A DNA stretch of 64,000 bases from Cystobacter fuscus. Lineage in GTDB: Bacteria > Myxococcota > Myxococcia > Myxococcales > Myxococcaceae. Below are positions 13,880 through 16,761 of the stretch, in pieces. The position numbers and the translations under genes were made by a program. Location of the stretch: positions 310,001-374,000 of the forward strand of contig NZ_CP022098.1 of the NCBI RefSeq assembly GCF_002305875.1. The letters run 5' to 3'. Position 1 is the stretch's first letter. Each line of letters opens with the position of its first letter. The notes under the pieces were generated by a model. The model had not been told where the DNA came from. It did not search any database and saw only the letters and a program-made list of their open reading frames with translations.

Positions 13880-14554
13880 TCAGATCGAGGCGAGATCCTC
13901 CACGATGTCACGAAGGTAGCGGTTGGACTCGAAGACGACGCTCCGGAGCGATTCTTCCTGGGCGATGTGTTGGAGATATTTTGGACCGTCGATGGCCTTG
14001 GCGTAGCCACGGGTCCTGGTCCGGGTCCGACTGAAACGTTCCTTGACGATTTCGGCCGCGTCCCGTCTGGCGCAGACATCGGGGATGGACTCCCCGAGCC
14101 CGAGCCGATCGGTGACGGGGAGGATGAGGGTCTCTTGCTCCCACACGAGGACATGGGGATGGAAGCCATCACGAATGGTGGCCCATTGCTCCTCGGGTTT
14201 GCCTCCCCGCGCGAGGGTTCTCATGCTCGCCTGGATGGTGGTGATGAACGGAGGGAGGGAGTGGTCGTACGGCTCGCGAGGTGCTTGAACGCCGAGCTGG
14301 GGCAGGTTCCAGGCATTGCGCGCGTCAATCACATAGAACACGTGGTCGATTCGCGGTTTGTAATGGAACCGGAACATCTCGTACTTGCGGCGCTGGTCGA
14401 GCAACTGGGTGTTGCCGTTGACGGTGGAGCGCTGGAGCGGGAAATGCAGGGGTGGCTTTCCCTGGGACCGACGTCGATGTTGCGCTTCGGCTCGGAGGAC
14501 GGCTTCCAAGCCACCACCGGTTTTATCCTCGGTGATGATGTGGACGCTCGTCAT
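13880..14554 (-). CDS. TOPRIM-like (DUF4276/RloB-type) partner of the ATPase
   Basis: 224 residues from ATG 14554, whose ATGA overlaps the stop of the upstream ATPase, so the two are coupled. The beginning SVHIITEDKTGG resembles the acidic first motif of TOPRIM-type nucleases (VEGxTE), with E9. FYVIDARNAW (D77) takes the position of the DxD-type motif, and VWEQETLILP resembles the Glu-containing third motif of DUF4276/RloB proteins. Second-half features include AIDGPKYLQHI. In AbiL, PARIS and OLD-type systems such a protein is the toxic nuclease controlled by an ABC-type ATPase. Motif assignment is by eye and the sequence is divergent. Lower GC than the flanking genes. Confidence 0.6.
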   Translation of the reverse strand: MTSVHIITEDKTGGGLEAVLRAEAQHRRRSQGKPPLHFPLQRSTVNGNTQLLDQRRKYEMFRFHYKPRIDHVFYVIDARNAWNLPQLGVQAPREPYDHSLPPFITTIQASMRTLARGGKPEEQWATIRDGFHPHVLVWEQETLILPVTDRLGLGESIPDVCARRDAAEIVKERFSRTRTRTRGYAKAIDGPKYLQHIAQEESLRSVVFESNRYLRDIVEDLASI

Positions 14555-16614
14555 GGGGTGGAGTCCCACCCTTCGAGTTCGCGACGCATCTCCCGGAGAC
14601 TGAAGCTCTTGAGCCACTCGCGGAGTTGATCCGCCTCGGGACGAACGAGGCGTGCTTCCTGCTCCTCTCGTCTGGCCACCACGACGCACTCCGGTGCATC
14701 GTCCAGGAGCCCGATGAGCGCATCGGATTGGGTGGTGAGCAGGATGGGGTGTCGCTCGGACAGGGAGCGCGCCGCGCCCATCAGGCGCATGAGCGCGTCG
14801 GGGTGCAGATGGGCCTCGGGTTCATCCAGGGCGATGAGCGCGCTGCCCGGCTGGAAGAGCGCACACAGACTGGCCAGGAAGTGGAGCGTTCCATCGGACA
14901 ATTCCGAGGCATCGAATTGCCCGCCATTCACCTCGTCCCAGAAGAGCTGGACGGTTCCCCGGCCCACGGCGGGAAGACGCAGATCCTTCAGCGAGGGAAA
15001 GGCGAGGCGGACGATGTTCACGAAGTCCTGCCAGTCCTCGGGTCGTTCCTCACGCAGGGCGAAGAGGGCCGCGGGGAGGTTGTTGCCCGTGCGTTCCAGA
15101 CGTGCGCCGGGCTCGAGCCTCACGGGCCGGCGCATGGGGACCGATTCCGGATCCGCCCAGGATGCGCCCGTGCGGAAATAGGGGTACACGGCGATGGCCG
15201 CGAGTGCGGCCCGCGCCTGCTGCACCAGCGGATTGCGGATGCCTCCCAACTGGGAGATCAGCGCCTCACGCTCGTTGGACACGGGTACTGCCGTCCCCGA
15301 GAGCTTCGCCTGGGTGGCCACCCGGGAGAGAACGGGCACCCACGCGCCCTGGACGTACTCGGCGAGTTCTTCCTGCTCCACGGCGAAGTCATAGGAGCCC
15401 ACCGCACCGAGCTGGAGCCGGAATCGCAACGCATGGCCTGTTGCGGTTCGCAGCTCCGCTTCCAGGAGGAGGGGCGCCATGGCTCCTCGTGATTGGAGGG
15501 CGCGGATGCCACTTCGGCGCTGGACCAGCCCGGTGGCGAGCTCCCCGCGCGCGGCCTCCGAGAGCAATTGGAGCGCATCGAGCAGGGAACTCTTGCCACT
15601 CTGGTTGGGTCCGACAATGACCGAGAGGGGCGGGTCGAAGCGGAGTTCCGCCGAACGCAGCAGGCGAAAGGACTGGACCCGGAACGCGGTGAGCCGGGTG
15701 TCCTCGGCAATCTCCGGACCGATGTCCGGGGCTGGAGTTCCGAGGATACTGACGATCTGGGCGCCGTGTTGGTGTTGGACTTCCGCTCGCAGGGATATCG
15801 CGGGTGCGCCCGAGAGGTAGAGATTGATGAAGAGGGGTCTCTTGTCTTTGAACTCGAAGACGGATGTGTAGGTGCATGTCCCCGAAGTGGATTCGGGACC
15901 AGACAGCCACCGGAGTGTCTTGGAGTCGAGCCGCTGATCCTGCTGCGTTCCCTCGATGTTGAGAATGAAGCGAGACGTATCCAGGCCAGGGAGTCCCTCG
16001 ACCTCGACGCGCAGTCGTGATGCTTCGCTTTGGGCTGTCATCGAGAGCACCGGCCATGGTGCACAGAGCGCGAGCACCGCATGTTCGCTCTTCTCGCTGT
16101 TGAGCCCCGTGAACGCTCGAATCAGTCGGTGGAGAGAGGCATAGGCATATTCCGACTCGACGGCGATCTCCCTGTCCACATTCTTGGTGGCGGGACCCAG
16201 CAATTGTTTGATCGCTGCTCCGCGTCCCTCGGTGTATGTGCCCAGGCCAAACTCCCTCCGCGAGGAATCCGTGTCCCACCAGGCGACGGACTGGCTCGAG
16301 ACCGTCAAGTGGATGGGTGTGGAGAGGCGGGGTTGTTCGCTGAAAGGTTGTTCGATTGTCCCGGAGTCAATGCTCGCGAGGAGGGTTCCGAGGTCCTTCA
16401 TGGAGCCGAGCCATTGGCGCGCGGAGACGAGACTCGTGTCCAGTGGATCCAATACAGGCGGTGTTGCCGCCTTGCGGACGAGGACCGCGCTGAGCGCGAT
16501 GACCATCATGGGCGCCGCCTGGCTCCAGACCACCCCCAGGCGGATACCGTCGTATCCCGAGGCTTGCGCCAGTTGCTCGGCGTCATCGCGGAATTGCTGA
16601 AGGTTCGCGTTCAC
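14551..16614 (-). CDS. AAA_21/OLD-like ATPase with a 310-residue unknown N-terminal domain
   Basis: 687 residues, GTG start. The ABC-type ATPase half spans about 305-687: Walker A GPNQSGKS at 335-342, signature LSDGT at 572-576, Walker B ALIALDEPEAHLHP at 592-605, switch TTQSD at 627-631. This is the SMC/RecF-like group of predicted ATPases (about 370-400 residues) found in RloA-, AbiLi- and AriA-type defence proteins. Residues 1-305 are an extra domain of mixed helix then beta-rich strands (for example FILNIEGTQQ, LFINLYLSGAP) that I do not recognise. The operon is this gene followed by the TOPRIM-like protein. A defence role is inferred from architecture and coupling; housekeeping DNA repair is less likely given the dedicated partner. 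Confidence 0.85.
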   Translation of the reverse strand: MNANLQQFRDDAEQLAQASGYDGIRLGVVWSQAAPMMVIALSAVLVRKAATPPVLDPLDTSLVSARQWLGSMKDLGTLLASIDSGTIEQPFSEQPRLSTPIHLTVSSQSVAWWDTDSSRREFGLGTYTEGRGAAIKQLLGPATKNVDREIAVESEYAYASLHRLIRAFTGLNSEKSEHAVLALCAPWPVLSMTAQSEASRLRVEVEGLPGLDTSRFILNIEGTQQDQRLDSKTLRWLSGPESTSGTCTYTSVFEFKDKRPLFINLYLSGAPAISLRAEVQHQHGAQIVSILGTPAPDIGPEIAEDTRLTAFRVQSFRLLRSAELRFDPPLSVIVGPNQSGKSSLLDALQLLSEAARGELATGLVQRRSGIRALQSRGAMAPLLLEAELRTATGHALRFRLQLGAVGSYDFAVEQEELAEYVQGAWVPVLSRVATQAKLSGTAVPVSNEREALISQLGGIRNPLVQQARAALAAIAVYPYFRTGASWADPESVPMRRPVRLEPGARLERTGNNLPAALFALREERPEDWQDFVNIVRLAFPSLKDLRLPAVGRGTVQLFWDEVNGGQFDASELSDGTLHFLASLCALFQPGSALIALDEPEAHLHPDALMRLMGAARSLSERHPILLTTQSDALIGLLDDAPECVVVARREEQEARLVRPEADQLREWLKSFSLREMRRELEGWDSTP

Positions 16615-16761
16615 GGGGAGCGCACCCTAACATGGCACCTCACGCGCTCGTCCCCGTTTTGCCCCGCCTGCGCGTCCCCCATGACCGCGACCGGTGGGGG
16701 GCCTCGACGGCTGGCACCCCTCCCGGTCATCGCTTCCGGCCGCTCCTGAGACCCGAGCGGC

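Follow-up and report, generated by a model that had tools for sequence, protein, structure and literature searches.

What is the role of a two-gene unit on the reverse strand of a 64,000-nucleotide stretch of Cystobacter fuscus DNA (contig NZ_CP022098.1, positions 310,001 to 374,000; hereafter the window), which encodes an ATPase of the ABC type and a small protein with conserved acidic residues? Pairs of an ABC ATPase and a TOPRIM protein are known from several defense systems. Here, we describe a domain of about 300 residues at the N-terminus of the ATPase that is without a convincing match in the libraries searched, changes fast, and has been exchanged in one relative. We propose that the pair is a variant of the ATPase/DUF4276-type pairs, probably a PARIS-like sensor–effector system with an exchangeable sensor.

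The Gene Pair and Its ATPase

The original prediction, made from the letters of the window, described a 687-residue ABC ATPase with intact Walker A, signature, and Walker B motifs, whose stop codon overlaps the start of a 224-residue protein with acidic motifs. Both statements are borne out. The motifs by which OLD/ABC ATPases are recognized are all present, with residues 591–605 of the Walker B region reading SALIALDEPEAHLHP, and the motif residues are invariant in the four complete orthologs except for L596 and A601. The stop codon of the ATPase gene shares four bases, ATGA, with the start codon of the small gene, an arrangement suggestive of translational coupling. Gene order and the 4-base overlap are kept at all four complete loci (the window, L008, L007, and L009); at a fifth, broken locus in genome G046, the order is the same, and the overlap reads GTGA. 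A GTG farther upstream in the frame of the small gene would give 269 residues. The 224-residue ATG start is preferred because the N-terminus from that ATG aligns with the relatives of the small protein. Features are listed in Table 1.

Table 1. Features of the gene pair and its right-hand border, in window coordinates.
Feature	Position	Strand	Remarks
Large gene: OLD/AAA_21-type ABC ATPase (putative sensor-switch)	14551..16614	(-)	GTG start, 687 residues
N-terminal domain of ATPase, fast-evolving	15706..16614	(-)	residues 1–303; no convincing library match
ABC ATPase core, HEC-01A-like	14554..15699	(-)	residues 306–687
Walker A GPNQSGKS	15589..15612	(-)	residues 335–342
ABC signature LSDGT	14887..14901	(-)	residues 572–576
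Walker B region ALIALDEPEAHLHP	14800..14841	(-)	residues 592–605
ATGA stop–start overlap of the two genes	14551..14554	(-)	putative translational coupling
Small gene: DUF4276/TOPRIM-like probable nuclease effector	13880..14554	(-)	ATG start, 224 residues
Codon of E9, TOPRIM-like Glu	14528..14530	(-)	invariant, 35/35
Codon of D77, first Asp of DxD-like position	14324..14326	(-)	invariant, 35/35
Codons E139-Q140-E141	14132..14140	(-)	E141 kept in at least 90% of 35 sequences
Codon of K186, Y-x-K motif common to many DUF4276 rows	13997..13999	(-)	from sequence alignments
Right-hand junction	16637..16750	(.)	transferase-like gene of G073/G074 matched at its 3′ end over about 110 bases

The C-terminal part of the ATPase is of the AAA_21/AAA_15 type, and its open reading frame is not a chance one since the Pfam AAA_21 match has an E-value of 1.1e-24. 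In PADLOC, 130 families match the ATPase. HEC-01A comes first (E 1.2e-48, 164 bits, residues 306–676; the curated cut-off is not shown beside this match), and the other matches among the best 25 of the 130 include PDC-M07A (1.2e-26), AriA (3.1e-23), AbiLi (2.7e-14), and GajA (2.1e-12). The HEC-01 A and B labels are not clean, as one HEC-01B model also matches the ATPase (4.1e-19). The NCBIfam model MAD3 matches it with 101 bits, short of its curated cut-off of 420 bits.

The N-Terminal Domain

For residues 1–303, nothing convincing was found in Pfam (best E 0.08, one of four members searched) or in PHROGs; the best E-value among PDB sequences is 0.17, and a scan of viral contigs found no copies. 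The Pfam match, to a glycosidase domain, is disbelieved. The domain is present in 4 of the 142 genomes searched. A fifth match (G010, E 1.7e-4) is judged by eye to be spurious, a 130-residue frame opposite longer gene-like frames. The original prediction makes no mention of this domain.

The domain differs sharply from the core in its rate of change. Between the window and the ortholog in G073, it is 80.5% identical with a ratio of nonsynonymous to synonymous substitution rates (dN/dS) of 0.38, versus 96.9% and 0.07 for the core, which makes the ratio of the domain about five times as high. Residues 1–303 have 59 nonsynonymous and 46 synonymous codon changes, and the remainder has 12 and 53 (Fisher p 1e-6). 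The more distant orthologs repeat the pattern, with identities for N-terminal domain versus core of 54% versus 85% in G044 and 36% versus 66% in G120. Change clusters at residues ~41–140 and 241–300, while residues 161–220 are without change. The amino acid identity of the domain is also lower than that of the flanking MCP and AsmA genes (93–94%), and by amino acid change it is unusually fast. Recombination may contribute to the divergence since dS is raised in residues 81–140.

In G046, a different front end is found. The ABC core on contig C41 of that genome, 59% identical to the window core over residues 300–526, is preceded in one open frame (L079:7931-10000) by about 450 residues that are not the window’s N-terminal domain and that match the AAA_16 P-loop model (6.5e-8, 33.7 bits; cut-off 32.6). 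C41 stops inside the ATPase gene, and contig C45 starts at the same point, carrying the remaining core (76%). The fusion could conceivably stem from misassembly, but this would need a break at the domain border. Relatives of the P-loop domain occur in 7 of the 142 genomes, G046 included, mostly as open frames of 465–477 residues.

Two side observations concern such front ends. Five loci with P-loop relatives were fetched. In four of them (L122, L124, L125, and L126), the gene is present, and behind it comes a related repeat protein, which Pfam identifies as TPR in the sole case scanned (L122:7349-10763); at the fifth (L123), the gene was not returned by the gene-caller. The stand-alone P-loop gene and the repeat protein form a possible two-gene system. 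Also, the ATPases of two DUF4276 pairs, L065 and L073, are extended at the N-terminus, in open frame, by as many as 210 and 177 residues, respectively, that are unlike the window’s domain, another hint of exchangeable front ends.

The Small Protein

No match to the window’s small protein was found in Pfam, PADLOC (no family with an E-value of 1 or less), NCBIfam, or PHROGs, and a four-row profile found nothing among PDB sequences. The Pfam family DUF4276 (PF14103) gave 0 matches for the window protein and its orthologs in G073 and G044 (92% and 67% identical to it, respectively); the G120 ortholog (52% identical) matches with E 6.6e-4 and 20.4 bits, under the curated cut-off of 30.2 bits. Alignment by hhalign of the small-protein profile with 29 DUF4276 sequences gave a probability of 61% (E 8e-5, residues 129–198). 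Two DUF4276 subgroups taken singly gave weaker results, 13.8% (E 0.002) and 0.3% (E 0.18), and the reversed-profile control gave 0.2–0.3%. The DUF4276 guess of the original prediction was nevertheless in the right neighborhood, although the profile search that it had suggested found neither DUF4276 nor RloB in the window protein and the single ortholog with a match stays under the cut-off.

A hand-chosen alignment of 35 sequences, comprising the 4 orthologs, 12 proteins of the YED family described below, and 19 DUF4276 proteins, has E9 and D77, the two residues that the original prediction had named, invariant throughout and E141 conserved in at least 90%. Within the 4 orthologs and 11 YED rows, E9, D10, D77, and R204 are invariant (15/15). 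All four complete orthologs keep E9, D77, E141, and K186. Of the TOPRIM motif, the conserved Glu and the first Asp of DxD are present as E9 and D77; at the second Asp, all four complete orthologs have R79.

AlphaFold models of the small protein reach a predicted local distance difference test score (pLDDT) of 42.9 and a predicted template modeling score (pTM) of 0.46 with 4 rows, and 88.9 and 0.87 with 35 rows. The top five VIA-align rows are all OLD nucleases, over their TOPRIM regions, as follows: 6nk8 (Z 7.7, root-mean-square deviation 4.7, 160 aligned), 6njv (7.2), 6njx (6.8), 6p74 (6.7), and 6njw (6.6). The range of 6.6–7.7 lies below the trust line of about 8, under which a Z may reflect merely a common arrangement. 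AriB is absent from the rows shown, which says nothing about AriB. Foldseek found nothing in BFVD at 0.001; one weak row there is named RloB-like (E 0.067). The 35-row profile returned a nucleolar GTP-binding protein 2 alone among PDB sequences (E 0.07), a match that is disbelieved. The model leans to a TOPRIM fold, not decisively, which does not refute the TOPRIM assignment of the original prediction.

In the OLD nuclease of Burkholderia, metal A is bound directly by E400 and D455, and metal B by E508; D457, E404, and T506 act via waters, and K562 is required for efficient activity (PMC6755086). By order and motif, we would equate E9, D77, E141, and K186 with OLD E400, D455, E508, and K562, respectively, and G13 and R79 would then occupy the positions of E404 and D457. 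Because of these two replacements, the activity of the small protein may be weak or altered. The same replacements could be taken to mean that the protein is without catalysis and serves as a regulatory or nucleic acid-binding subunit of the ATPase. We consider this improbable, as the residues equated with the direct metal ligands and with the lysine are kept in the four complete orthologs, and a dN/dS of 0.18 for the small protein between the window and G073 indicates constraint. Given this value and the 0.07 of the core, both genes look maintained.

Related Pairs

The 40 best relatives of the ATPase, taken after six ortholog rows, were surveyed for a partner downstream on the same strand with match ends no more than 700 bases apart. 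A partner was recognized for 37 of the 40, of the DUF4276 type in 29 and of the YED type in 8, with the match ends 36 to 327 bases apart. The three relatives without a recognized partner may reflect an undercount because the lists hold 43 DUF4276 rows and 10 of 23 YED rows. Of the DUF4276-type partners, four were scanned in PADLOC: three match HEC-01B strongly, and that of L065 does not. A search with one DUF4276 member turned up no sequence relative of solved structure, and one DUF4276 protein had no match among phages.

The YED family was assembled here from loci behind ABC ATPases and is named for its usual LYED start. Its members (L094, L095, L088, L049, L050, L052, L056, L058, L060, L089, L090, and L091, all in Myxococcota) have 176–224 residues, are 12–22% identical to the window’s small protein, and mostly begin with LYED or LWED. 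None of six YED proteins scanned has a PADLOC match at E 0.01 or reaches a Pfam cut-off. In Pfam, one of the six has a sub-threshold DUF4276 match (E 0.006), one has two weak unrelated matches, and four have nothing; a single YED protein searched among viral contigs and plasmids had no match. YED genes (e.g., L094, L095, and L049) have the identical place behind ABC ATPases, with the 4-base overlap in 6/6 examined. Unlike the window family, most YED proteins keep an Asp two residues past D77. Extensions in front of the ATPase match are 24, 1, and 2 residues long in L050, L056, and L058.

The genome of the window itself, G000, contains three further ATPase–DUF4276 pairs, called by coordinates (C1:4462262-4464075, 5025690-5027416, and 10070069-10071735; in the third, the DUF4276 match is below cut-off). 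With the window pair, this makes about four related pairs in the genome.

Comparison with Known Systems

The original prediction placed the pair with AbiL, PARIS, and OLD-type systems. A coupled ABC ATPase and TOPRIM-like protein is indeed what the locus appears to encode, but by profile scores the ATPase is closer to the PADLOC candidate HEC-01 than to AbiL or PARIS. The pair is like HEC-01 in its ATPase core and in having a small downstream partner, and unlike it in that the small protein lacks a HEC-01B match and the ATPase has the extra 300-residue N-terminal domain. As far as such matches define HEC-01, the ATPase qualifies, and the partner does not. Several Hma-embedded candidates, HEC-06 among them by name, are antiviral (PMC12988326), and HEC-01 is merely listed among predicted systems (PMC12724379). 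No mention of HEC was found in the PADLOC paper of 2021.

The AbiLi and MAD3 profiles match the ATPase as given above; the MAD3 cut-off is missed, however, and the small protein matches no family at all, RloB included. In PARIS, proposed as class 4 OLD, the TOPRIM partner of the AriB type is DUF4435. PARIS likewise has an ABC ATPase and a TOPRIM effector in adjacent genes, AriA and AriB (PMC12409363, PMC10568477). It differs in that the AriA match is far weaker than that of HEC-01A, in the extra N-terminal domain here, and in the small protein, which has no PADLOC or Pfam match, hence none to AriB, with DUF4276 matched in one of four members. AriA hexamers keep AriB inactive until a phage protein frees it, and host tRNA is then cut (PMC12409363). 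Going by these parallels, the pair most likely works like PARIS, though the tests run do not make it a member of PARIS. Class 2 OLD nucleases (6nk8 and 6njv) provide the best structural rows for the small protein and the inferred counterparts of its acidic residues and lysine (PMC6755086); unlike the window pair, they join ATPase and TOPRIM in a single chain, and the window protein does not keep counterparts of their E404 and D457.

In the literature searched on HEC-01 and the Hma-embedded candidates, PARIS, RloB/AbiL/TOPRIM, ABC-ATPase/TOPRIM pairs, and myxobacterial defense, the present architecture was not found, although an earlier description of such N-terminal fusions is possible; no literature was found on DUF4276, and none of relevance on MADS. 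The cooperation of ABC ATPases and TOPRIM proteins is far from fully understood (PMC10568477).

Distribution and Composition

The small protein occurs in 5 of 147 genomes of the class, and a profile search returned the identical five among 195 genomes of the phylum. These are G000, G073, G044, G120, and G046 (broken), all of one family in the grouping used. A scan of genome contigs for the small protein gave a match in Archangium lansinium alone. The five pairs occupy four sites, as G000 and G073 have a common one, and G044, G120, and G046 have other immediate neighbors. Homologs confined to places beside housekeeping genes, which the original prediction had named as a result that would speak against it, are thus not what is seen. 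In sister genome G074, MCP and AsmA are 97% and 95% identical to those of the window, and there is no pair between them.

The pair has a GC content of 64.0% versus 68.8% for the whole window. Third-position GC is 0.76 in the small gene, 0.80 in the ATPase core, and 0.73 in the N-terminal domain; the two neighbor genes have 0.97 (MCP) and 0.96 (AsmA). The pair is compositionally foreign and was apparently acquired horizontally, and the transfer suspected in the original prediction fits this composition, the patchy distribution, and the sister genome without the pair.

These data bear on the proposal that the genes are a lineage-specific housekeeping pair for DNA repair or nucleoprotein maintenance of the RecF/OLD kind. 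The P-loop region of the ATPase matches RecF, Rad50, and SMC models, all below curated cut-offs, the genomic context is not a defense island, and an archaeal OLD-family ATPase has a reported non-defense role (PMC12796447). Nevertheless, a housekeeping function of this kind seems to us very unlikely for genes found in 5 of 195 genomes of the phylum, missing from the sister-species locus, of foreign composition, and with an N-terminal domain replaced in one relative.

Somewhat less remote, but still unlikely, is an anti-plasmid or general toxin–antitoxin-like module, in which the ATPase would be the antitoxin or regulator and the small nuclease the toxin, with selection for self-stabilizing or plasmid exclusion, not against phages. 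A coupled two-gene unit that is present or absent together and has conserved residues of catalytic type would agree with it. A plain antitoxin, however, would not resemble this large ATPase, whose extra domain is far more variable than its core, and the plasmid collection has no copies.

A Probable Sensor–Effector Module with an Exchangeable Front End

On balance, we favor a horizontally gained two-gene sensor–effector module, PARIS/HEC-01-like and directed against phage, as the likelier account of the pair. Since the engine is conserved and its front ends differ visibly, sensor and effector are distinguishable from sequence. We suggest that the OLD-like ABC ATPase oligomerizes and, in a complex, keeps the TOPRIM-like protein inactive, and that its dedicated N-terminal domain would be the sensor. 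This domain would meet the trigger, which is most likely a protein or activity that the phage encodes, and an ATP-dependent rearrangement would then free or activate the small protein. The latter, as a putative two-metal nuclease with E9, D77, and E141, together with K186, would cut host RNA or DNA and halt the infected cell, and the whole would be an alarm-and-suicide device against viruses.

It is tempting to go further and propose a plug-in sensor, in which one ABC-ATPase/TOPRIM engine carries an AAA_16/STAND-like P-loop domain in one myxobacterial genome and the variable, novel domain in four others. We hold this more tentatively, at somewhat less than even chances. If it is true, the first 300 residues of the ATPase represent a new class of receptor for phage triggers, and a domain swap should swap the trigger. 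The tie of the DUF4276 and YED families to a probable TOPRIM-like fold offers a testable catalytic hypothesis for both.

Several observations weigh against the sensor–effector account. The dN/dS of the N-terminal domain is below 1, with no value above 1 in any 60-codon stretch, and the ratios of the flanking genes are near it (MCP 0.33, AsmA 0.36). Because of this resemblance, it is the core that is the unusually conserved part by ratio. Replacement of the domain is known from one draft genome, G046, in 430 contigs. As for the small protein, the 31 added rows may have forced their own fold on the model; the best VIA-align Z is under the trust line, with lumazine synthases close behind at 6.5; Foldseek found nothing in the PDB at E 0.001 or better, the best match being an unrelated chain (E 0.025); and G13 and R79 stand at the presumed positions of OLD E404 and D457. 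No copies of the small protein were found in phages, plasmids, or viral contigs. HEC-01 is itself a candidate, and the statement on antiviral activity in PMC12988326 does not name it.

The neighborhood belongs among these points as well, and here the defense-island survey put forward in the original prediction gave no support. Pfam recognizes no defense gene beside the loci scanned (five genes in the window, four at L007, two at L009, and two at L010, the upstream neighbors in G046 left out), where the genes are ordinary or, in several cases, unnamed by Pfam. Nor do the window neighbors (by Pfam) and 39 further window genes (by PADLOC, in the control) place the pair among defense genes. Around ten YED pairs, there is no clear excess of defense matches over a 71-protein control, in sets of open reading frames picked by length and third-position GC that may include non-genes. 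The top PADLOC models among the 109 neighbors of the ten pairs, MkoA, C3a189 kinase, PD-T4-6, and mad6, with 3 members each, are also matched in the control, with 1 member each, and RtcR-type regulators have 3 there. Among the best 25 of the 38 families of the test set and the best 25 of the 27 families of the control, PDC-M20B (2 members) and mad3 (1) are listed for the test set and not for the control.

Flanking Genes and Probable Insertion Site

The gene order is MCP, pair, transferase-like gene, and AsmA in G073, and MCP, pair, and AsmA in the window; in G074, the transferase-like gene, read by eye as glutathione-S-transferase-like, lies between MCP and AsmA. The pair is most simply an insertion because the transferase gene is also found no more than 6 kb from AsmA, with no pair between, in G075, G043, and G046. 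The left border is at the stop codon of the small gene. From the matching bases at the right-hand junction (Table 1), the window lineage seems to have lost the transferase gene after insertion of the pair, leaving a remnant.

At the other sites, a gene with a weak transposase match lies about 2.5 kb from the pair in G044, and the pair in G120 is flanked by GH114 and DUF1800 genes, one on each side. The small gene of G046 (L010:489-1158, C45) is frameshifted near a run of C, as in a real pseudogene or through a sequencing error, both of which are possible.

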